A stretch of DNA of 61,979 nt from Tropicimonas isoalkanivorans (GTDB lineage: Bacteria > Pseudomonadota > Alphaproteobacteria > Rhodobacterales > Rhodobacteraceae), in contig NZ_FOLG01000019.1 in assembly GCF_900112335.1 (NCBI RefSeq), positions 1-61,979 on the forward strand. The letters are read 5' to 3'. Under the pieces are notes generated by a model that made no database searches, was not told the DNA's origin, and saw nothing but the letters and a program-made list of their open reading frames with translations. Numbering within the stretch: position 1 is the stretch's first letter; each line of letters opens with the position of its first letter. Made by a program: the position numbers and the translations under genes. This document shows positions 12,197 through 25,759 of this stretch, one piece after another.

Positions 12197-14692
<2,496 letters not shown>

Positions 14693-14702
14693 CCGTCGAA
14701 TG

Positions 14703-14734
14703 CCCGGGGGCCGAACCTTTTTCTGGCCCCCGGG
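14703..14734 (+). terminator. hairpin after gyrB
   Basis: A perfect 10-base G+C-rich stem (CCCGGGGGCC at 14703-14712 with GGCCCCCGGG at 14725-14734) lies between the convergent ends of gyrB and the kinase gene. There is no T run after it on the plus strand, so it may act with other factors or for both directions. Confidence 0.6.
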
Positions 14735-14789
14735 TGGCCTTGGGTATCGGACCTAACCGCTGACTGGTCGAGCCCACCGCCTGCCGCAA

Positions 14790-15926
14790 TCACTCCGGCG
14801 GCGGCAGGTGAATCTCCACCGTCAGGCCATCACTTCCGTCGACCGAGAGTTTGCCGCCGTTTTGGAACGTCAACGTTCGGATCAGCCGCCAGCCCAATGA
14901 GTTCGACCGCTCCGGCCGATCTGCGTCATCGGACAGCCCACATCCGTTGTCCGACACGGTGAGCGCCATGGCTCCTTCCGCATCGGTCGTAAACTCGACC
15001 CGGATTGCACCCTCCTTCCGGCCGCGGAAGGCGTGTTTGTAGGCATTCGTGATGATTTCCCCGACGATCAGCCCGATATCAACCGCCAACCGTCCATCCA
15101 TCTCCAGTGTGTTGCACTCCACGTCGATGGTGACGTTGAGGTCCGGCGCGTTGAAGGCCTGCTTCGCGTTGGACGCGACTGCCTGAAGGAGATCCCGCGC
15201 GGCGATAATCCCGCCCTGTGCCGACTTCTGCATCAGCTCGTGGGCCTTCGACAGCGCGGCGACCCGGGTTTCCAATTCGCTCAGAACCCGTTCCGTCTCC
15301 TCTTGCGTGGCCTGCGATTTGCTCATGCGGATCAAGGCGACGATCAGGGTAAGGTTGTTGCCCGTCCGGTGATGCAGTTCCCGCATGAGCAGGTCGCGCT
15401 CATCGAGGCTGCTCATGAGTTCGCGGTTCTGCGCCGTCAGCGCTTTCATTGGGTCGGACGTCTCGAGTTTTTCGAGGGCATCCATGGCCGTGTGCCACGG
15501 GCTTTCGTTCGCGTCGCAGGGCTGTGATGCGCGAAAGGTGACCTGGATCCGTGTCCCTTCGCTGCCGGTATCGACGTTGAATCCGGTCGCGATACGTTCG
15601 ACCCCCCGCAAGCCCAGGCCCATGCCATCCGACGCAGCGACCGGGTTTGTCCCGTCGAGCCAGTTTGCCGGGATGCCATTCCCCTGATCCAGAACGGTCA
15701 CCGCAAGAACCGGCCGCCCATCGTTTTCCGCAAGCTTGAAGCCCGCCCGCCCGCGTTTCCCGTGTTCAATCGCGTTGCGGCCAAGTTCGACGACAGCGGT
15801 TACGATCCGGGTCCGCTCGAACGTTCCGAAACCGAGTACCGAGGTGAGCGCAAGCGCGACCTCACGCAAGTGGACGATGTCCGAACCCTGCTCCAGGCGA
15901 ACGGATGTCAGATGCCCTGTCTTCAT
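14790..15926 (-). CDS. double-ATPase sensor kinase, RsbT/RsbW-like domain plus HisKA_2-type histidine kinase
   Basis: A 378-residue soluble protein with two GHKL ATPase domains. Residues 1-135 form an RsbT/RsbW-like domain (N box VVELGRNAIEHG, then LDQGNGIP and GMGLGLRGVERI). Residues 175-375 form a histidine kinase of the HisKA_2/HWE type, with the phospho-acceptor region RELHHRTGNNL near 183-192, N box IVGEIITNAYKHAF and G box VSDNGCGLS. No membrane segment is visible. It is the last gene of the stressosome operon, and its start overlaps the previous stop as TAATG. It probably carries the stressosome signal to an unseen response regulator or sigma-factor system; that is inference. Confidence 0.75.
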   Translation of the reverse strand: MKTGHLTSVRLEQGSDIVHLREVALALTSVLGFGTFERTRIVTAVVELGRNAIEHGKRGRAGFKLAENDGRPVLAVTVLDQGNGIPANWLDGTNPVAASDGMGLGLRGVERIATGFNVDTGSEGTRIQVTFRASQPCDANESPWHTAMDALEKLETSDPMKALTAQNRELMSSLDERDLLMRELHHRTGNNLTLIVALIRMSKSQATQEETERVLSELETRVAALSKAHELMQKSAQGGIIAARDLLQAVASNAKQAFNAPDLNVTIDVECNTLEMDGRLAVDIGLIVGEIITNAYKHAFRGRKEGAIRVEFTTDAEGAMALTVSDNGCGLSDDADRPERSNSLGWRLIRTLTFQNGGKLSVDGSDGLTVEIHLPPPE

Positions 15927-16921
15927 TACTCTCGTTCGACTTTCACGCGTGCCAACACAATCGATGCGTCGTCTCGGCCCCTGAACATCCTGTCGAGAAA
16001 GTACCCTGCAATCAGGAGGGGGCTTCGATACATCAGACCCGGCGGAATATTGGCCTCCCGAAGGGTCTTCAGCCCGTCACTGTGTAGGATGACGGTGTCC
16101 CCGGGTGCGAGGGCGATTGTCTCCTCGTACCCTCGCGTGGCAGGGCCGCCGATACGCCCATCACGCACCGCCAGACGCCGGAACCCGGACGGCCCGACAT
16201 GGAGCGTCGAGATGTTTCCCAGTCCCGAATAGGTCATGGTCATCGCTTCGTGGTCGATGCGGATGGCGGAGGCGACCGCTCCCCGTTTGCCGACAAGACG
16301 GCGCGACACCTCCTCGATCAAAGCGCCCGGGTCCATGGGCGAAGCTTCCGCGCCCTCGAGAACCTCTGCGGCGGCCCGCGCGGCGAGTGGGCCATGACCG
16401 AGACCGTCGCAAAGCACGATACCTGTCTCCTGCGGGCCCTGACGCAGGGTCCAGGCGTCCCCGCATACGCTCTCGGCAGGGTGGCAGACACACAGGCCCG
16501 CCACCTCGATCGGTGGTTTCGTCGCGCCCTTGTCCTGATCGAATGCGCAAACGATCGTCGTGCCGGCGTCGGCGGAGGTGAAAACGTCGAAACTGTCGGA
16601 AAGCCGGCGAAGCGCGCCCAGACCGAGACCGGCGGACGCGAGCGTGCTCTGCCCGTCGTTCATCATCCGGTCGAGATCGCCGATCCCCGGCCCATTGTCC
16701 GCGAAAAGAACGACGAGCTTATGCACGCCGGGTTTTTGGATCACCTCGACCAGCGCCCGGCCTCGACCGGCGTGGCGCAGGATGTTGGTCGCCGCCTCCG
16801 TGACGACGATCGCCAACTCCTCCTGCCGCCTTTCGGTCATCCCCATGGAGGAGGCACACCGGCGGGCAATCCGTCTCATCGCAGCGACGGCGCTGCGGTC
16901 TTCGATGTCGATCCAGCGCAT
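15926..16921 (-). CDS. RsbX-like phosphatase with an N-terminal anti-sigma-type ATPase domain
   Basis: A 331-residue protein. Residues 1-130 are an RsbW/RsbT-type ATPase (TEAATNILRHAGRG, ADNGPGI, GLGLGALRRLSDSFD). Residues 140-330 are a SpoIIE/PP2C-type phosphatase, with metal-binding stretches CGDAW (153-157) and CDGLGHG (171-177) and LHSDGLKTL near the end. Gram-positive RsbX is the phosphatase domain alone, which resets the phosphorylated stressosome proteins, so the extra ATPase domain is notable. The ATG at 16921 overlaps the RsbT stop as TGATG, pointing to coupled translation. Confidence 0.75.
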   Translation of the reverse strand: MRWIDIEDRSAVAAMRRIARRCASSMGMTERRQEELAIVVTEAATNILRHAGRGRALVEVIQKPGVHKLVVLFADNGPGIGDLDRMMNDGQSTLASAGLGLGALRRLSDSFDVFTSADAGTTIVCAFDQDKGATKPPIEVAGLCVCHPAESVCGDAWTLRQGPQETGIVLCDGLGHGPLAARAAAEVLEGAEASPMDPGALIEEVSRRLVGKRGAVASAIRIDHEAMTMTYSGLGNISTLHVGPSGFRRLAVRDGRIGGPATRGYEETIALAPGDTVILHSDGLKTLREANIPPGLMYRSPLLIAGYFLDRMFRGRDDASIVLARVKVERE

Positions 16922-17334
16922 CACACCCGGCAGCTCATCGTCACGACCGTGCCCTCGCCCGGCGCTGAGCGGATATCGAACGTGTCCGACAGCCGCTTTG
17001 CCCCGCCTAGCCCGCGGCCTAGCCCGTCCCGGCTGGTGTATCCGTCCTGCATCGCTTGCTCCAGGTTCCCGATGCCCGGTCCGTGATCCTGGCATCTCAC
17101 CACCAGATATTGCTCGTCCGCCGTAATGGAAACGGAAATTTCACCGCCGCCCCCGTGCACCACCGCGTTCCTCGCAATTTCGCTTACCGCCGTCGCGAAG
17201 CGCGTCATCCGCAGGGCCGAGGCGCGTCTCGACTTCATCTCACGCATGACCGCCTGACGCGCGCGGACGACGTCGCCGCTCGCTGCAAGCTTCAGTCGTG
17301 CCAGCCGCCTCGCCGGTTGCGGTGGCTCACCCAC
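16921..17334 (-). CDS. rsbT: RsbT-like serine/threonine kinase
   Basis: A 137-residue GHKL kinase with N box TAVSEIARNAVVHGGG, CQDHGPGIGNLEQAM and GLGRGLGGAKRLSDTF. In Gram-positive stressosomes RsbT phosphorylates RsbR and RsbS, is released, and then activates the downstream RsbU phosphatase. Length and motifs match RsbT rather than RsbW. It overlaps the rsbS-like gene by 8 bases and the next gene by one base. No RsbU gene is seen in the window, so the target of released RsbT is unknown. Confidence 0.85.
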   Translation of the reverse strand: MGEPPQPARRLARLKLAASGDVVRARQAVMREMKSRRASALRMTRFATAVSEIARNAVVHGGGGEISVSITADEQYLVVRCQDHGPGIGNLEQAMQDGYTSRDGLGRGLGGAKRLSDTFDIRSAPGEGTVVTMSCRV

Positions 17335-17680
17335 GCCGAAGCTGAGACAGGGCGTGGGTCAGGCTGAGCGCGGTGCGCGTTTCGGGCAGGTACATCCCCA
17401 ACTCCACGAGCGTGACCGCCACCGCTGGGCGCATTCCGACGACATAGGTTTCCGCCGCGAGCAGCCGGGACATCCCCGCGATCTGCGCGATTACACGTCC
17501 TACGAAGGTATCCACGATTTCCAGCGCGCTGATGTCGAGAACGACACCGCGGACGTCCTCCTTCGCAATGCGGCCGGACAGCGTGTCTTGAAGGTCCATG
17601 ATCTCGGTATCGGTCACGTCGTCATGGAGCGACACGAGGAGCGCGTTTTCGACCAAGTGTATCGAGGACTTCCCTGACAC
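17327..17680 (-). CDS. rsbS: RsbS-like STAS-domain stressosome antagonist
   Basis: A 117-residue single STAS domain. The switch region VVLDISALEIVDTFVGR contains Ser51, which aligns with the serine that RsbT phosphorylates in Bacillus RsbS; the following GMRPAVAVTLVELG stretch is also typical. RsbS and RsbR together build the stressosome core, which holds RsbT inactive. The gene begins 4 bases after the rsbR-like stop and overlaps rsbT by 8 bases, so the three proteins are almost certainly made together. Confidence 0.87.
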   Translation of the reverse strand: MSGKSSIHLVENALLVSLHDDVTDTEIMDLQDTLSGRIAKEDVRGVVLDISALEIVDTFVGRVIAQIAGMSRLLAAETYVVGMRPAVAVTLVELGMYLPETRTALSLTHALSQLRRG

Positions 17681-17684
17681 GGTC

Positions 17685-18557
17685 TCAGTCCTTCACCGTC
17701 TCGATCCGGTAACCGACCGCCGTCAAGGCGTCGGCCAGGGCGGTGCGGATGCTGGAGCGGGTCTTCACGGTTCCGACGTCGATGCCCAATTGCACCATCG
17801 TCTGCGCAATCATCGGGCTGATGCCGCTGATGATGCAATCTGCCCCCATCAAACGCACGGCAGCGGCGGCCCGGAGAAGGTGTTGCGCAACCTGCGTGTC
17901 CACTGTCCCCACGCCCGTAATGTCGAGAATGACGACCTCCGCCTGCCGCTCGAGAATCGTCTGGAGGAGGTTTTCCATGACCTCCTGGGCACGGGCGGAG
18001 TCCAGCGTGCCGATCAGCGGCAGCGTCAGGACCCGATCCCACAGCTCAACCACCGGGGTCGACAGTTCCATCATCTCTTCGCGCTGACGCTCGATGATCT
18101 GTTCGCGCTCTTCGATGAAGATCTCGTTGGTGTGGATGGCGAAGGCGTCGACCAGTCGGGTCACCAGCATGACGTCTTCGATCAGAGCGTCGGGATCGTC
18201 GGCAAGCTTGTCCTGCAGGCGCGAGAAGAGAGGGGACTTCAGGGCAAGGACGAACGTGGCCATTTCCGTCGGCGTCACGCCGCGGCTTACCCGTTCCTTC
18301 GTGACGTCGGCCAGGACGGCGCGCAGGTCTTCCCACGCTGCATCGTCGAGGTTGAAATCACCGTCCACCATTCCGCCGCGGATCACGGCGGCGAAGTTTT
18401 TCAGCAACTCCGCGTTCTGGGCGCGGCTTTCGGCATCGGAGAACAGATCCGAGCGTTTCACACCCTCTTCGACCTGCGTTCCAAGCCATTCTTCAACGAT
18501 TCCGGTGAAGTCTTCCTCCAGAATTTTCACGAGGTTCGACGTCGAGGAGTGCGGCAT
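17685..18557 (-). CDS. rsbR: RsbR-like stressosome sensor
   Basis: A 290-residue protein. Residues 1-160 are all helical (LVKILEEDFTGIVEEWLG, then a long helix through EREQIIERQREEMMELS) and resemble the RsbRD_N sensory domain rather than the globin-like RsbR N-domain. Residues 165-285 are a STAS domain whose switch LDITGVGTVDTQVAQHLL carries Thr214, aligning with a phosphorylated threonine of Bacillus RsbR. The start at 18557 is preferred because GAGGG lies about 7 bases before it; an in-frame ATG at 18596 adds 13 residues. It is the first gene of the operon. Confidence 0.83.
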   Translation of the reverse strand: MPHSSTSNLVKILEEDFTGIVEEWLGTQVEEGVKRSDLFSDAESRAQNAELLKNFAAVIRGGMVDGDFNLDDAAWEDLRAVLADVTKERVSRGVTPTEMATFVLALKSPLFSRLQDKLADDPDALIEDVMLVTRLVDAFAIHTNEIFIEEREQIIERQREEMMELSTPVVELWDRVLTLPLIGTLDSARAQEVMENLLQTILERQAEVVILDITGVGTVDTQVAQHLLRAAAAVRLMGADCIISGISPMIAQTMVQLGIDVGTVKTRSSIRTALADALTAVGYRIETVKD

Positions 18558-18698
18558 ATACGGGCCCTCAAGTTGTTTCGTCGGGACAAAAGCCACTTGG
18601 CGTCTCCCGCGTCAATCCGGTTCCGCCAACGGCCCTAAAATTCGGCGAGGTTTCGAGCGTGATGGGAGGGGCGCGACGCGTCCAAACGCGAAATGGGA

Positions 18699-18727
18699 GC
18701 CACGGCACGCCGTGGCCCCCAGGTTTT
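18699..18727. terminator. hairpin between stressosome operon and autotransporter
   Basis: GCCACGGC at 18699-18706 pairs with GCCGTGGC at 18709-18716, the stem extends with flanking G/C bases, and TTTTTT lies at 18724-18729 on the plus strand. It sits just beyond the 3' end of the autotransporter gene (minus strand) and upstream of the rsbR start, so it most likely insulates the two units. Confidence 0.6.
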
Positions 18728-18763
18728 TTCCACACATTTGACCCGGGCAGGGATGCTCGCGCC

Positions 18764-21700
18764 CTAGAAGCGGATCTCCAGCCGCAGCGTTCCGGTCGCC
18801 TCGGCCCAGTTCTCGGAGAAAAGCGTGTCGACGCTCGCGCCGAGCGTCACTCTCTCGGAGAACGCCGCGTCGATGCCGACCCCCAGATCCGCGAAATACC
18901 GATCACTTTCGTCCCGGATCTCGAAAGCGGGCCCGAGGCCGTTTGCGCCGGTCAGCCGAGCCGTGGTCAAGCGCGTCGTATCGGAGAGGATGCCGTAGAC
19001 CCCAGCTCGCCCGCTGATCGTCATCTCGCGCCCGTTTGCGGTCATGTCCGCATTCACGACCAAGGCAGGGTTGAGGGTCACGAGCGTTTCGTCGTTGGAC
19101 GAGACATCGAGCCCGAAGGTTCCCGCATCGCTTTCGCGGAAACCGTCGTTCCAGAATTGAGCGACTCCGAGATCGACATAAGGCGCGAGTGACACTTGCG
19201 CGCTGACTGGCACGGTTTGGGTCAGCCTAGCGTGACCGGCGATCCAGGACGTGTCGGGATCGCTGCTGGCAGTGACCTTGCCGTCCGGCGTGAGCAGGCC
19301 CCGATCGAAGTCGTAGGACTGCCAGCCCCCCGAAAGAGAGGCCGAGAGCGTCGTCGCGCCGAACTGGCCTTCGCCGAAAACGCCCAGCATGAACCGGTCG
19401 CCGGAGCCGTCGAAAGCGTCGCTGTCAATCGAGGAGCGATCGTAAGCGGCGCCGAAACCGAGGGTCCATCGCTCGCCCATCTCCCATTCCGCGCCCGCCG
19501 CCGCGCCGAAGATCGACTCGTGGTAGGAGGAGGTGAGACCGTCCTCGTCCCGGTAGGCTCCGGTTCCGGAGAGCCGGACCCAGGCGCAGCCCTCGTCGCC
19601 GGTCATCGTGACCATGCCGTCATTGACTGGCGAGCCGCAGCCGAAAAGGTCGTTGGAGAAGCGTCGCGCGGCCATCGCCGCCGCATCGGCCGGCACGAAC
19701 ACCTCGCCCGGCGCGAAGGAGGCGTAGATGTCCAGAAGATCCCCGGCGTCAGAGGCGTTCACGAGGAAGAGCGCCAGATCCTCGACGAAATCGAACTGTT
19801 CGCCACCCAAGGCAAGTTCGGACTTACGCTGCCCGATCAGGTCGTCGACGTGGCGCCCGAAGCTCAGGTGGTTGGCGGTGACGTTGTCTCCCACCGGCGA
19901 GGCGTCGCCCTGCATCCACGCGACGTAGTCGATATCGTAGGTGAGCGTTGCCGAACCCGGGTTGGTCATCAGCCCGTAGCCCATGATCGGGGAGGGCGAC
20001 ACGTCGAGCGCGGCCGCCCTCAATGCGGCTCCGGTGGCGGAGATGATCTGCACCGAGCCCTTGTCGCCGCTCTCTGGGAGCCCCCCGATGACGTTGGGTG
20101 CCACGACGCCGGCATATTCGATCTCGCTGGCGCTCTTGATGATCAGCAGATCGCTTTCGACCGAGGTATCCGAGAAGTTCAGGTCCACGTCCGTCGTGCT
20201 GCCGCTGAGCACCTGAAAACTCGCCACGTCGAAGGTCGAGGTGCCGATGACGCCGGAGCCCGCCGCCGAGAGCCATCCCGACACGTTCGTGAAGCCGCCG
20301 TTGCCGAGATCAATCGTGGTGCCGGAGCCGAAATGGCCCGACTGGTTCACGAAATCGATGCTGCCCGGAGCGCCGGACCCCGGCTCGTCGGTCAGGACCG
20401 ATCCAGTGATGTAGCCATCATTGGCGACTGCGAGCGCGCCGAGACCGTCGGTTCGGATCACGTAACCCGAGAGGTTGTTCTGCTCGATGAACCCGTCGTT
20501 CGTAAGGGTGTTGTTGGTCCCGCCGAAGATGCCGATGGTCTCCGCGCCGTCCTCCCCTGTGCTGACGTTGCCGCTCTCGGCAACGGTGATGACCACGTTG
20601 CCCTGCTGCGGCGGGGTCGTGGCCCCCGTAACTGCGAGAGCCGTGCCGCTTGGTGGCAGCGGGGTGACGGTGGGGACGGCGGTTTCACTCTGCGCGAGGA
20701 TGCCGCGGCCGCCCTCGCCAAGCGCGGAGATCTTGTTCTTTACGGTGACCGTGACGCCACCGGAGGTATCCTTGGCACCGGTGCCGCCGACGGACTGGGC
20801 AAAGACGCCCGCGGCGTAATCGCCTTTGACCACGATCGAGCCGTCGACCGTCACGTCGACCGCACCCGCATTGCCACTGTCGCCGGCATTTCCGACAAAC
20901 GGGTTCCAGCCCTCCTGCAGGATGCCGCTGATCCCGACCGCGCCGCCGGAGCCTGCGACGGACTGGGCAAAGACGCCATGGGCGGTTTCGCCGAACGTCA
21001 GGATGCTGCCGGTCGCGATGGTCACGTCGCCGCTGTCGCCACCGGCGCCCGAGGCGCGCTGTATGCCCACGCCGACGCCGAAGTTGAGGTCGCCCCATTC
21101 GAAATTCAGCGCCTTGGTCACGTCTCCGGCCGCGCCGCCGCCCCCGCCGACGGATTGGGCGAAGATGCCGCCGCTGCCATTGCCGATGGTCTTGATCGAG
21201 CCGCCGGTGTTGGTGACGCTGACCGCGTGTCCATCGCCGCCGCCGCTGCCGAGGCCGCCCACCGACACCGGGCCGAAAAGCCCGCTGCCGCCGACGCCGC
21301 CGGTTCCTCCGCCGCCGCCGATGGATTGCGCCTTGATGGCGAAGGAGGTGTCGCCGTTGGTACTGAGGTCGGCGGTGTTGGTTATCGTCAGATCCTCGCC
21401 GTCGCCGGCCGCGCCGCCGCTTCCGCCGATGCCGATCTCGGCAGTCGTCCAGAAGGTGATGTTCGCGCCGCCGAAGTACTTCTTGAAGGCGCTATTCGTC
21501 TTCTTGGTGGTCCAGGCGCCGTATCCGCCGGCGCCCTCGCCGCCGGTGCCCCCGCCGCCACCGATCGAATAGGCGTCAATAGCGTAGGAGGTGTTGCCGC
21601 TGGTCACGATGTCCGCCGTGTTCGTAACCGTGACGGTATCTCCATTGCCGCCCGCGCCGGCCTTGCCACCGACATTGACGTCGAGATTTGCGGTGACGGG

Positions 21701-24700
21701 CTTTTCGGTGTCGTCCTTGGTCGCCTTGCAGGCATAGCTCGTCTTGTTGGGGGTGAGCCTGCAGAGGCCATTGACGTTGATGTTGGCACTGGACGCCTCG
21801 CCGCCCGAGCCGCCGCCTCCGCCGACCGAGAACGCGCGGATGCCGGATGATGTGACTCCCAATGTGGTGATTGCGCCGCTGTTCGTCACGTTCACCGCGT
21901 TGGCATTGTTGCCTGAGCCGCCCCCGCCGCCGACATCGACCGCGAGGTTGAACTTGAGGGTCTCCTCGTCACTGCTGCCGATCAGCCGTGCCGCGACGTT
22001 GGCGGCGTTGCCGCCGTTTCCGCCGCCGCCGCCGACGGAGCCTGCGAAGATGCCGCGGGAGCCGCCGAGCCATGTGTCGATGGAGCCGGAGTTGTTGACC
22101 GTCACCGCCCCGCCGACGTTGCCCTTGCCGCCGCCGCCCCCGACGGAAACACCGATGTTCACGCTGCTGCCGGTGGTGAGCGCCCCTTGAACCGAGCCCA
22201 CGTTGCCGCCACTGCCGCCATTGCCGCCGATCGACATGGCAGAAATGGCGTCGGCCATGTAGCTGTCAGTCAGGAGGTTGCCGCTGTTCTTGACCGTGAC
22301 CGCCTTTCCGGTGCCGCCGCTTCCGCCGCCGCCACCCACGTCGACGTTGGCCTGGACCGAGCCGTCGCTGGAGACCGATACGTTGCCGGTATAAACCGAA
22401 CCGCCGGTGCCGCCATTGCCGCCGATGGATTGCGCCCGGATGGCGCTCGCGCCCAGCCCGAACGTGGAGATCGCGTTGTTGCTGGTCACCGATACGGTGC
22501 CGGCAATCCCGCCGCCACCGCCGGCGCCGCCGATTGAGACACCGAGCTCGCCCGTAAGCTCGCCCGCCGTCAACGCCCCCTCGATGACAAGGCCACCGCG
22601 CCCTCCTGCGCCGCCCACGGACCGCGCGCCGATACCGTCCGCGAAGGGGCCGACGGTCGTGATGGCGCCGTCAGACGTGACGGAAACATCGCCCGCACTG
22701 CCGCCTGCGCCGCCCTTCCCGCCGACGCCGACCTGAATCGCGCCCATCGAAAGGCCGCCGACCGTCGCCGTGGCTTTTGCCGCACCGCCGGAGCCGCCGG
22801 TGCTGACCGCCTCGATGCCGTCCGAGAGCGCGCCCTCTGTCTTGATCCGCCCTCCGCTGTAGACATAAACGTCAGAGCTCTGGCCGCCGCTGCCGCCGGA
22901 CCCGCCGACCGCAATGTTGACCGCGCCCGCCTGAATGGCGCCTGTGGCCAGGTTGAAGCCCGACTTGCCCCCACCGCCGCCGATGGAGGCCGCGTAGATG
23001 CCCTCGCTCACCTCGCCCAGCGTCGTGATGGCCGCGCCCGACGTTACGGAAACGGCGCTCGCGTTGCCGCCTGCGCCACCAGACCCGCCGAGCGACGCAT
23101 TAACCGACAGGCCCGCGGCCACGTCTGCCGCGATGGTTGCTCCGGCCGCACCGCCGCCTCCGGCGACGCTTGCCGCGTGAATGCCGGTCGAGATCTTGCC
23201 GGAGGTGGAGATGGTGCCGTCGGCAGCGACCGTCACGGCCCCGGCGGAACCGCCCTTGCCCGCGGACGAGCCCAAGGCAACATCCACGGACACTGCGGAG
23301 ACGCCACCGCCGGCGATGGTCGTCCCGGATGCGCCGCCGCCGCCCGCGATGGAGAGCGCCGCCACCCCATCGGAGTGGTCGCCTGCCGTGCTCACCGAAC
23401 CGAGCGAGGTGACGTTCACCGCACCGGACGCCCCCCCGTTCCCACCGGAGCCGCCCTTGGCGATGCTGAGAGATAGCCCGCCGCCCTCGTCCACGGTGAT
23501 CGCGGCACCCCCAACGCCGCCACCGCCGCCGACTGAGTGGCCGAAGACGCCCTGGGAGTTGTCGCCCTTGGTTGTGACATCGGCAGCGGTCGCCAGGTAC
23601 ACCTCGCCGCCGCTGCTGCCGTGACCGCCGGCGCCCGCGGCGCCGTAGCCGATGGAGATGGCCGGGTTGGCGCTGACGGAGATCGCCGCGCCGCCGGTAC
23701 CGCCGCCGCCGCCAATGGAACTGACGAGAATCCCGCGGGAGGTGTGGCCGGCGGTCGACACCGTCACAGGGCTGTTTTTGCCATAGCAGGCATCGCTGCC
23801 GGCATTGCCTTCGAAGGTATCGCAATAGGCGGCACTCGACGCGTTGCCGCCGCTGCCGCCAGTCCCGCCGATGGCCACGGAAGCGCCGAGCGAGACGGAG
23901 ACGGCCGACGATCCGCGCCCACCCCCGCCGCCGAGGGACATCGCGTGGAATGCGTCAGCGAAGTCGCCTGTTGTTGCGACCGATCCGGTGTTGACGATTG
24001 CCGCCGCACCACCGGTGCCGCCTCCGCCGCCAGAACCGCCCATCGCAACGAGACCGTTCGTGGAGTGGGTTGCGCCACCGCCGCCGCCAGTGCTGGCCGC
24101 AACAACGCCCGCTGCGGCCAGTCCGCCCGCCGTGATGTCGCCCGAGTTGGTGACGGTGACCGCGCCACCGCTGCCGCCGGAGCCACCGCTGCCGCCAAGC
24201 GCCTTGATCGCGTCCGCGCTGCCGCCGGATCCACCGCCGCCACCGACCGAGTGGGCGTAAAGGCCGTTTGCCACGATGCCGGAAACGGTGATGTCAGCCG
24301 CGTTGTCGACTTTCACAGCGCCGCCGTTCCCGCCGGCCGAGCCGGTGCTGCCGAGCGCCTCGACCCCGATGGCGGCGGACGCCTTGCCACCGCCCCCGCC
24401 TATCGAGAGCGCCGAGATCCCGTCTGCCGCGAGGCCTTGCGTCGCGATGCTGGCCCCATCGGTCGTGGTCACATTGACTGCGCCGCCGCGCCCGGCGCTC
24501 TGGTCGCCAGCGCTGTAGGCGACGAAGCCGACCGCAATGCCGCCGGCACCTGCGAAACCGCCGACGCTCTGCGCGAGGATGCCGCTGCCGTTGATGCCGG
24601 TGGTGGAGATCGTGGCATCTGTAGTCACGTTCACTGTGCCACCCGGCCCGCTGCCGGCGCCTGCGCCGCCTTTGCCCTTGCCCGCGAAGGCATCGCCGGA

Positions 24701-25759
24701 GCCACCGTCGCCCCCCGCTCCGCCATAGCTCTCCGCGAGGATGCCCTGCGCGTCCATGCCCTTGGTCGTGATTTTCGTATTGGAGACGGAGACGCTCGCC
24801 GTTCCACCCGATCCTCCCGCGCCGCCGTTGCCGCCCTTGCCGTTGCCGATAAACCTCGATGTGCCGGGTCCCCCGTCGCCACCGGAGCCGGCCGTGCTCG
24901 AGGCGCGAACCCCGTGAGACAGCGCGCCGCTCGTGGAGAAGGTTGCTTCGCCGCCGCCCTGGTTGATCTGGACGCTCACATTGCCGCCGGCGCCGCCGGT
25001 CCCGCCTGCGCCACCGATCGCTCCGCCTGCGTTCTTTTTCGTCTTGGTGACCAGCGATACACCCAGGCCCCCCAGGCCCCCGTTTCCGCCCACCGAAAGC
25101 GCGGCTACGGCCGGCCCGGGGCCTGACAGGTAGATCGCAGCCTCCTCGACCGTCGTCGTCGCTGCTTGTCCGTTGCCGCCGTTTCCGCCTCTTCCGCCGG
25201 TCACGTCCCCCCCACCCGCGGAAAGGGCGCCGCCGGTGCCGCCATTGCCACCCGTTGTCATGCTGGAAACCCCGGCCAACGCCCAGGCGATGGAGGCATC
25301 ATTGACGATGGTGGTGGCGGTGGAGCTGGCGCCACCCGCCCCGCCATTATAGCTTTTGACGCAACAGAGGGCGTCTCGCTCCTTACCGTTGCCTCCCTTG
25401 CCACCCTTCGTCTCGCTGCGGATGGCAGGGCCGCCGTTGATGATGGAGGAGTCCGTGCCATCGTAGGTGATCTTCGCGCTGAGCGGCGACTTGCCGTTGG
25501 TCGGAGGCTTTCCGTTTTGACCGTTATTCCCTGTGTTGGAGAGTTGGATCGACGGGTCGTTCCCCGACAATTCGATGTTGGAGGTCAGGGACTTGAAGAT
25601 CAGTTCCTGCAGGTTCACGACGACAGCGCCGTATTGGACGTCGCCTGTGCACGTTGCGACCGAACCGCTGAACGTACATCCTGCGTAGATCGGATGGGCA
25701 AGCGCTGTGGTGGAAAAGAGTGTGGCAAGGAAAACGCGCCGCGGGACCGGAAAAGACAT
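18764..25759 (-). CDS. giant glycine-rich autotransporter (type V secretion)
   Basis: A 2331-residue protein. A signal peptide is visible at residues 1-26 (basic start, ATLFSTTALAHPIYA). The passenger, to about residue 2050, is built from dozens of imperfect units of roughly 45-55 residues, each combining a Gly-run such as SVGGGGGSGG with a strand motif like VTVTNSGDITTxGxxAxGIxAxS, which predicts a long beta-helix with glycine loops. The last 275 residues or so are an outer-membrane beta-barrel ending in Phe (LRLEIRF). Function is probably adhesion or surface coating, which is inference. The start follows a strong GGGGGGTGAGAG ribosome site; a small dyad (ATCGA/TCGAT) lies at 25781-25795. 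Confidence 0.9.
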   Translation of the reverse strand: MSFPVPRRVFLATLFSTTALAHPIYAGCTFSGSVATCTGDVQYGAVVVNLQELIFKSLTSNIELSGNDPSIQLSNTGNNGQNGKPPTNGKSPLSAKITYDGTDSSIINGGPAIRSETKGGKGGNGKERDALCCVKSYNGGAGGASSTATTIVNDASIAWALAGVSSMTTGGNGGTGGALSAGGGDVTGGRGGNGGNGQAATTTVEEAAIYLSGPGPAVAALSVGGNGGLGGLGVSLVTKTKKNAGGAIGGAGGTGGAGGNVSVQINQGGGEATFSTSGALSHGVRASSTAGSGGDGGPGTSRFIGNGKGGNGGAGGSGGTASVSVSNTKITTKGMDAQGILAESYGGAGGDGGSGDAFAGKGKGGAGAGSGPGGTVNVTTDATISTTGINGSGILAQSVGGFAGAGGIAVGFVAYSAGDQSAGRGGAVNVTTTDGASIATQGLAADGISALSIGGGGGKASAAIGVEALGSTGSAGGNGGAVKVDNAADITVSGIVANGLYAHSVGGGGGSGGSADAIKALGGSGGSGGSGGAVTVTNSGDITAGGLAAAGVVAASTGGGGGATHSTNGLVAMGGSGGGGGTGGAAAIVNTGSVATTGDFADAFHAMSLGGGGGRGSSAVSVSLGASVAIGGTGGSGGNASSAAYCDTFEGNAGSDACYGKNSPVTVSTAGHTSRGILVSSIGGGGGTGGAAISVSANPAISIGYGAAGAGGHGSSGGEVYLATAADVTTKGDNSQGVFGHSVGGGGGVGGAAITVDEGGGLSLSIAKGGSGGNGGASGAVNVTSLGSVSTAGDHSDGVAALSIAGGGGASGTTIAGGGVSAVSVDVALGSSAGKGGSAGAVTVAADGTISTSGKISTGIHAASVAGGGGAAGATIAADVAAGLSVNASLGGSGGAGGNASAVSVTSGAAITTLGEVSEGIYAASIGGGGGKSGFNLATGAIQAGAVNIAVGGSGGSGGQSSDVYVYSGGRIKTEGALSDGIEAVSTGGSGGAAKATATVGGLSMGAIQVGVGGKGGAGGSAGDVSVTSDGAITTVGPFADGIGARSVGGAGGRGGLVIEGALTAGELTGELGVSIGGAGGGGGIAGTVSVTSNNAISTFGLGASAIRAQSIGGNGGTGGSVYTGNVSVSSDGSVQANVDVGGGGGSGGTGKAVTVKNSGNLLTDSYMADAISAMSIGGNGGSGGNVGSVQGALTTGSSVNIGVSVGGGGGKGNVGGAVTVNNSGSIDTWLGGSRGIFAGSVGGGGGNGGNAANVAARLIGSSDEETLKFNLAVDVGGGGGSGNNANAVNVTNSGAITTLGVTSSGIRAFSVGGGGGSGGEASSANINVNGLCRLTPNKTSYACKATKDDTEKPVTANLDVNVGGKAGAGGNGDTVTVTNTADIVTSGNTSYAIDAYSIGGGGGTGGEGAGGYGAWTTKKTNSAFKKYFGGANITFWTTAEIGIGGSGGAAGDGEDLTITNTADLSTNGDTSFAIKAQSIGGGGGTGGVGGSGLFGPVSVGGLGSGGGDGHAVSVTNTGGSIKTIGNGSGGIFAQSVGGGGGAAGDVTKALNFEWGDLNFGVGVGIQRASGAGGDSGDVTIATGSILTFGETAHGVFAQSVAGSGGAVGISGILQEGWNPFVGNAGDSGNAGAVDVTVDGSIVVKGDYAAGVFAQSVGGTGAKDTSGGVTVTVKNKISALGEGGRGILAQSETAVPTVTPLPPSGTALAVTGATTPPQQGNVVITVAESGNVSTGEDGAETIGIFGGTNNTLTNDGFIEQNNLSGYVIRTDGLGALAVANDGYITGSVLTDEPGSGAPGSIDFVNQSGHFGSGTTIDLGNGGFTNVSGWLSAAGSGVIGTSTFDVASFQVLSGSTTDVDLNFSDTSVESDLLIIKSASEIEYAGVVAPNVIGGLPESGDKGSVQIISATGAALRAAALDVSPSPIMGYGLMTNPGSATLTYDIDYVAWMQGDASPVGDNVTANHLSFGRHVDDLIGQRKSELALGGEQFDFVEDLALFLVNASDAGDLLDIYASFAPGEVFVPADAAAMAARRFSNDLFGCGSPVNDGMVTMTGDEGCAWVRLSGTGAYRDEDGLTSSYHESIFGAAAGAEWEMGERWTLGFGAAYDRSSIDSDAFDGSGDRFMLGVFGEGQFGATTLSASLSGGWQSYDFDRGLLTPDGKVTASSDPDTSWIAGHARLTQTVPVSAQVSLAPYVDLGVAQFWNDGFRESDAGTFGLDVSSNDETLVTLNPALVVNADMTANGREMTISGRAGVYGILSDTTRLTTARLTGANGLGPAFEIRDESDRYFADLGVGIDAAFSERVTLGASVDTLFSENWAEATGTLRLEIRF

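Follow-up and report, generated by a model that had tools for sequence, protein, structure and literature searches.

A stressosome operon of Tropicimonas isoalkanivorans ending in a histidine kinase with an RsbT-like domain, and its possible connection to PhyR

The Bacillus sigB stressosome (rsbRSTUVW-sigB-rsbX) comprises STAS core proteins, a switch kinase and a feedback phosphatase. Modules of the rsbRSTX type are already on record for Proteobacteria, and in alpha-, beta- and gammaproteobacterial members their downstream proteins include ones that bear RsbU_N (Heinz et al. 2022, PMC9237108). In the sections of that survey dealing with outputs, eleven downstream architectures are distinguished, including HisKA/REC phosphorelays (e.g., in Ruegeria), and the downstream proteins of Gram-negative modules carry RsbU_N in some cases and lack it in the majority (PMC9237108). 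The downstream partner of the Vibrio stressosome is described as unproven and the output route of Gram-negative stressosomes without SigB as open in the passages concerned (PMC9237108, PMC4976288). Here, a stressosome operon is described in a stretch of 61,979 nucleotides (the window) of the marine-type alphaproteobacterium Tropicimonas isoalkanivorans (contig NZ_FOLG01000019.1, assembly GCF_900112335.1). Its genes encode RsbR, RsbS, RsbT, an RsbX-type phosphatase and a histidine kinase, arranged head to tail on the minus strand (18557-14790) with the kinase last.

The operon shares with the Bacillus system the STAS core proteins, the switch kinase, the feedback phosphatase and the alignment columns of the phosphosites. 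Unlike in Bacillus, RsbU, RsbV, RsbW and SigB are absent from the operon, the RsbS site is a Thr instead of a Ser and the output protein is a histidine kinase. The modules of the Vibrio vulnificus type, as far as PMC9237108 portrays them, are alike in the R-S-T-X order, the lack of a sigma factor and a two-component output; they differ in having a single-domain PP2C RsbX and, among those surveyed, a globin sensor, whereas the window operon has a GHKL-fused RsbX and an RsbRD_N sensor. In contrast to the Vibrio-type output, the window kinase joins a HisKA_2 transmitter to an RsbT-like domain and has no adjacent receiver. An initial annotation of this DNA had regarded the output route as new for the group. 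This holds in part, since rsbRSTX modules are already known in Proteobacteria (PMC9237108); what differs is the route itself, without RsbU_N, without an adjacent response regulator and with a HisKA_2 kinase to which an RsbT-like domain is fused. With a probability of roughly 0.55, the client of this stressosome would be the histidine kinase, docked by its own RsbT-like domain and leading from stress to PhyR phosphorylation. A link between the stressosome and PhyR was not found in the open-access literature; PMC3999984 and PMC4598750, in the portions that treat these systems, describe both side by side, unlinked.

Genes, domains and phosphorylation sites of the operon

An RsbR with sensor and STAS domains, an RsbS STAS protein and an RsbT GHKL kinase are encoded together, the combination that characterizes a stressosome (RsbRST) module. 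RsbR (17685..18557; 290 amino acids, ATG start) matches the Pfam families RsbRD_N (E 2.7e-19) and STAS (E 2e-16), and RsbS (17327..17680; 117 amino acids, GTG start) consists of a lone STAS domain (Pfam E 4.9e-9). RsbT (16921..17334; 137 amino acids, GTG start), a GHKL serine/threonine switch kinase, matches HATPase_c_2 (E 1.9e-15) and has intact ATP motifs. The RsbX-type phosphatase (15926..16924; 332 amino acids, GTG start) contains HATPase_c_2 at residues 12-125 (E 7e-14) followed by a SpoIIE/PP2C domain at 165-285, and the terminal kinase (14790..15926; 378 amino acids, ATG start) an RsbT-like GHKL domain at about residues 5-132, HisKA_2 at 183-256 and HATPase_c. All five lie on the minus strand, and their start codons were chosen from overlap and alignment. 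Three GHKL domains thus occur in succession, as free RsbT, at the front of the phosphatase and at the front of the histidine kinase; the latter two had been missed by the initial annotation. Its description of five genes separated by overlaps of 1-8 bases or a gap of 4 was confirmed, the junctions from RsbR to the kinase being a 4-base gap and then overlaps of 8, 4 and 1 bases. Pfam and the layout also bear out its view of a stressosome operon with the kinase last, and no sigma factor was detected by Pfam among the five genes.

Conservation was assessed in a scan of public genomes, from which the best 80 of 430 loci were taken (51 alphaproteobacterial, 29 other). The candidate phosphosites S187 and T221 of RsbR, whose aligned counterparts in Listeria RsbR (7b0u) are the Thr residues of its PLIGTID-T and VVD-T motifs, are the identical residue in 51/51 alphaproteobacterial and 29/29 other loci. 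The candidate site T58 of RsbS shares its column with the residue mutated in Moorella S58E (3zxn) and with the serine of RsbS from Bacillus (6jhk). The aligned positions in RsbR and RsbS are phosphosites according to the relevant part of PMC6614362. All 51 alphaproteobacterial loci have Thr at position 58 of RsbS, and Ser stands there in all 29 non-alphaproteobacterial loci as well as in three classical modules of the same family, a clean lineage switch that could alter the speed of the phosphatase reset. N56 and D83 of RsbT are kept in 50/51 alphaproteobacterial loci, the remaining one (L063) stopping before the RsbT gene. The predicted RsbR model (predicted local distance difference test, pLDDT, 77.6; predicted template modelling score 0.52) has the Listeria stressosome 7b0u as its best PDB match (E 2.4e-12), and the STAS part shows 48% identity to the Vibrio stressosome 7o0i.

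The RsbX-type protein is not a single-domain PP2C, the N-terminal GHKL domain being present in all eight operons found in the family. In its PP2C/SpoIIE part, D156, D173 and D283 are conserved in 50/51 alphaproteobacterial loci and D318 in 49/51 (one locus ends before the RsbX gene and one has a gap at D318); we take these aspartates to be metal-binding.

The N-terminal domain of the kinase (15516..15926, minus strand) aligns with RsbT by hhalign (99.9%, E 1.2e-32), which identifies it as an RsbT homologue at the level of profile comparison, and it is proposed as the docking module for the RsbR/RsbS core. The transmitter is recognized by HisKA_2 (E 1.4e-14) and HATPase_c (E 1.5e-18), both above the Pfam cut-offs; HATPase_c_2 matches in two stretches, and RsbU_N was not found in the window kinase by Pfam. 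The phospho-acceptor is probably H186, because each of the 30 listed HisKA_2 matches has this His in front of an Arg. Among 50 alphaproteobacterial kinases, the H-box is present in 50/50 and the transmitter G1 pattern in 44/50; their N-terminal domains retain the ATP N-box in 50/50 and the strict G1 pattern in 47, the others reading DEGPG, DQGPG or DTGPG. The predicted model of the kinase (pLDDT 82.0) has a C-terminal part whose fold is nearest to EL346 (4r39, also 4r3a).

In a tree of 60 RsbT-like domains from Alphaproteobacteria, Betaproteobacteria, Verrucomicrobia and Actinobacteria, the RsbX N-terminal domains form one clade (support 100/100) and the kinase N-terminal domains one group with middling support (86/86), located on the same side of the tree as the RsbT of that module type. 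A split supported at 97/91 places the RsbX domains and three classical RsbTs opposite the kinase domains and the RsbT of the same modules.

Distribution of the module and forms in other lineages

Among 295 family genomes, 11 possess RsbR relatives (E <= 1e-15). Eight of these, including that of the window, contain the complete order RsbR, RsbS, RsbT, GHKL-fused RsbX, RsbT-headed kinase (R-S-T-TX-THK), and the remaining three (G257, G024, G281) have a classical module, that of G024 being visible up to the end of its contig. A full-length match to the kinase was obtained in 8/295 genomes, exclusively those with the operon; the other hits, among the matches listed, cover the transmitter only. In the public scan the five-gene order is found in 51/51 alphaproteobacterial loci as far as the contigs reach, with the whole kinase in 49 (L063 and L076 are cut by contig ends). 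These loci belong to Rhodobacteraceae-type genera, Erythrobacteraceae and other Sphingomonadales, Roseibium, Oricola and Parvularcula. Qipengyuania citrea and a Thioclava isolate are among the carriers of the operon. A chance arrangement is ruled out because seven other genera of the family preserve the order, as do the 51 alphaproteobacterial loci. The clustering in relatives that the initial annotation expected was observed in every family genome with these genes and in the 51 loci.

Outside Alphaproteobacteria, 25/29 loci have an RsbT-like domain at the beginning of the gene that follows RsbX, with a HisKA pattern behind it in 23; the profile used was built from 11 of those 25 sequences, leaving 14 independent finds. 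The domain was not found after RsbX in L090 (a HisKA-receiver kinase), L094, L101 and L097 (contig ends). The modules of actinobacterial, verrucomicrobial and betaproteobacterial origin with this layout (R-S-T-TX-TK, among L088-L119) resemble the window operon in gene order, GHKL-PP2C RsbX and RsbT-like kinase start, and differ in the HisKA transmitter (with GAF and receiver domains added in L091) and the Ser at the RsbS site. Since the HisKA form follows RsbX in these loci, the same order is, as read from the domain matches, common to lineages with different transmitters, HisKA_2 being the alphaproteobacterial form.

The actinobacterial modules differ further in that the DxGxG and GxG ATP motifs are gone from the kinase N-terminal domain in the seven sequences aligned (L095, L098, L099, L104, L114, L116, L118), which still match RsbT (98.6%, E 1.1e-15). 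Because RsbT homology remains after loss of these motifs, the fold appears to be kept without ATP chemistry in Actinobacteria, suggesting a docking or binding role. Pfam names no domain at this stretch in L095 and L104, the two tested. Two verrucomicrobial kinase N-terminal domains keep the ATP motifs (read by eye).

The classical type is exemplified within the same family by L037, which encodes R-S-T, a single-domain RsbX and a kinase with RsbU_N and HisKA, followed by a receiver. This layout corresponds to that reported by Heinz et al. 2022 in the passages on such modules (PMC9237108), and the window operon is devoid of both the RsbU_N and the receiver.

A possible route from the stressosome to PhyR

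In the proposed mechanism, RsbR and RsbS would form a megadalton-type STAS core holding RsbT, with RsbT acting as Ser/Thr switch kinase and the GHKL-PP2C protein as the presumed resetting phosphatase. The terminal kinase would be held by this core through its own RsbT-like domain, a docking step that is likely. Under stress, RsbT would phosphorylate S187 and T221 of RsbR and T58 of RsbS and the docking sites would change, the signal and the direction of control being those that we infer. The HisKA_2 transmitter, then freed or switched, would autophosphorylate at H186 and the phosphate would pass to PhyR, directly or through a phosphotransfer partner; PhyR would pull NepR off sigmaEcfG and the general stress response would start. 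As the target of the kinase, PhyR seems a good bet. Coordination of the general stress response in Alphaproteobacteria is the task of HWE/HisKA2 kinases, as stated in the part of PMC12148442 devoted to them, and in S. melonis most of them converge on PhyR according to the corresponding part of PMC5964349.

The initial annotation had noted the lack of a SigB-type switch. This is true of the operon, but its counterpart in Alphaproteobacteria, PhyR-NepR-EcfG, is encoded twice in the genome, each time with a kinase (L038 on contig C10 and L039 on C38; NepR identified by profile, the rest by Pfam). Two sets are also mentioned for Rubellimicrobium in the portion of PMC12148442 concerned. In L038, a further gene with sigma-70 regions 2/4 lies beside the locus, and a kinase-like gene (L038:13125-14861) has a HisKA_2 match with no HATPase_c at E <= 0.001; other kinases may feed its product, which would then be a phosphotransfer protein and not itself a kinase. 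HisKA_2 matches (E <= 1e-8) in the window genome (G000) amount to four: two beside NepR, that of the operon, and one classed as HWE first by Pfam, which sits in a CheB-CheR-PAS protein with an adjoining receiver. In two other operon genomes (G094, G106) there are just two such matches, the stressosome kinase and one located near NepR; the other five have one to five further matches each.

Both the transmitter and the operon are associated with NepR/PhyR. NepR was detected in 139/295 family genomes (137 above the curated cut-off). Transmitter hits (E <= 1e-12), scored as similarity to one sequence with at most 6 candidates per genome, occur in 133 genomes, 129 with NepR and 4 without it, the latter with one hit each; 10 NepR genomes have no transmitter hit. 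Two or more hits were obtained in 77 genomes, all with NepR (77/77), vs 0/156 NepR-free genomes. The operon genomes contain NepR in 8/8 cases vs 131/287 other family genomes (one-sided Fisher p 0.0022). Within the genus of the window NepR occurs in 5/9 genomes and the operon in one (n=9, too few for an association test). Among operon genomes from the public scan, 46/49 have NepR, a count that leaves out the genome of L055 and overlaps the 295-genome set by at least 5 genomes. The other three have PhyR or PhyR-like genes: two Pacificimonas species a clear PhyR (54-55% identity) and Parvularcula oceani two PhyR-like genes (34-35% identity). No full-length PhyR was found in five NepR-free control genomes (four of the genus and G024).

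Several observations weigh against PhyR as the destination. The overlap of transmitter and NepR is partly trivial because general stress response loci themselves contain such a kinase, a concern that counting the genomes with at least two hits removes only partly. The co-occurrence of operon and NepR is not corrected for phylogeny, and NepR is also present in 2/3 genomes with a classical module, whose one downstream kinase seen is of HisKA type. No NepR, EcfG or full-length PhyR match was obtained in the 51 alphaproteobacterial loci, only receivers, including single-domain receivers near the operon (L044:9324-9701, L047:7286-7654, L071:5329-5706) that leave another output open. EcfG-type promoters follow the pattern GGAA[CT]-N15-18-NGTT. 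This pattern was found upstream of RsbR in 0/52 regions (the 51 loci and the window), with shuffles giving an expectation of 1.3 and random 365-base pieces 45/2040; the test is weak and indicates no enrichment. Both nepR genes of the genome have the pattern roughly 100 bases ahead of them, and their loci contain it at other places too. Finally, in a tree of 40 transmitters the stressosome kinases form their own clade, not sister to the kinases of general stress response loci.

Close kinship of the stressosome kinase with the latter was considered and has no tree support; joining the two groups is not rejected either (approximately unbiased test, p 0.153). Compared with the HWE/HisKA2 kinases of this response (PhyK, Paks, LOV-kinases, EL346), the window kinase is alike in the HisKA_2 H-box and catalytic domain, with 4r39/4r3a as nearest structures, and unlike them in having an RsbT homologue as input, in being a stressosome operon gene and in lying outside the clade of NepR-adjacent kinases.

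The retention of a free RsbT gene in these operons would fit a mechanism in which freed RsbT is the messenger, as in Bacillus, and binds or phosphorylates the kinase via GHKL-GHKL pairing, the kinase never residing on the core. This appears fairly unlikely, as the kinase lacks RsbU_N, the known RsbT-binding domain, which the classical L037 possesses together with HisKA and a receiver, and the RsbT-like fold without ATP motifs in the seven actinobacterial kinases is easier to read as docking on STAS proteins. The intact ATP motifs of the alphaproteobacterial kinase N-terminal domains would in turn agree with RsbT-like domains on RsbX and kinase serving mainly as extra Ser/Thr kinases that tune RsbR/RsbS, with the histidine kinase part as a side branch; the persistence of the domain without these motifs in Actinobacteria and the conservation of the transmitter H-box and G1 pattern make this very improbable.

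Another explanation keeps the docking and sends the output to a different receiver, either a single-domain one of the FATGUY/HWE type or a general regulator. The HWE/HisKA2 kinases of Caulobacter and Sphingomonas have single-domain regulators as their hubs, as presented in the relevant part of PMC5964349, the genome encodes 45 receiver domains, of which C48:264392 is FATGUY-like by eye (VIFLTGY), and the receivers mentioned in L044, L047 and L071 point in the same direction. However, C48:264392 adjoins an HWE kinase of its own, and the strict FATGUY/PhyR pattern was found in two receivers only, both of them the PhyRs (in the loci scanned, which hold part of the 45 receivers). What follows the kinase in related genomes, a point raised by the initial annotation, is likewise unfavourable: no receiver is recurrent beside the operon, a similarity search giving one anywhere in 11/49 loci, and none directly follows the kinase, where 47 of these loci have at least 400 bases. 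An output of this kind is considered unlikely.

If the kinase is tied to PhyR through docking on the stressosome, this would explain why no neighbouring regulator is needed. An RsbT-like domain on a kinase of the PhyR-feeding class constitutes a named, testable wire for stressosome output; it would provide a direct partner for biochemistry and structure, an example of modular output swap on one sensing machine, and a stressosome input into the alphaproteobacterial general stress response, joining two classical bacterial general stress systems in one pathway. The evidence suggests that a sensing machine of Gram-positive bacteria became connected, in alphaproteobacteria, to their own and different switch for general stress. 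The chances are evenly balanced that an ancient module with an RsbT-domain kinase exchanged its HisKA transmitter for HisKA_2 in Alphaproteobacteria, the stressosome thereby commanding PhyR-NepR-sigmaEcfG.

Genomic neighbourhood

The boundary of the operon is formed by the convergent neighbour gyrB (12206..14692, plus strand), which is not a member of it. At the other side, the RsbR start lies about 200 bases behind the end of an open frame of 2331 amino acids on the same strand (18764-25759 of the window), glycine-rich and with an autotransporter-like reading, for which no Pfam family was matched at E <= 1. RsbR was detected in 1/9 genomes of the genus, that of the window, and in none of the eight others, and the operon likewise in 1/9. 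The region after gyrB differs in the five genomes of the genus with enough sequence, the contig ending in three others. Since this stretch is variable and the operon is present in one of nine genomes, it was probably gained or lost recently (window 14692-18764). Recent acquisition judged by composition gave no sign, the G+C content of the operon being 63.4% vs a mean of 63.2% for pieces of the window. In L047, a PAS-HisKA-receiver hybrid kinase is encoded directly upstream of RsbR, and Alloyangia pacifica KcN7-14 harbours the operon twice, once on each of two contigs (L045, L046).

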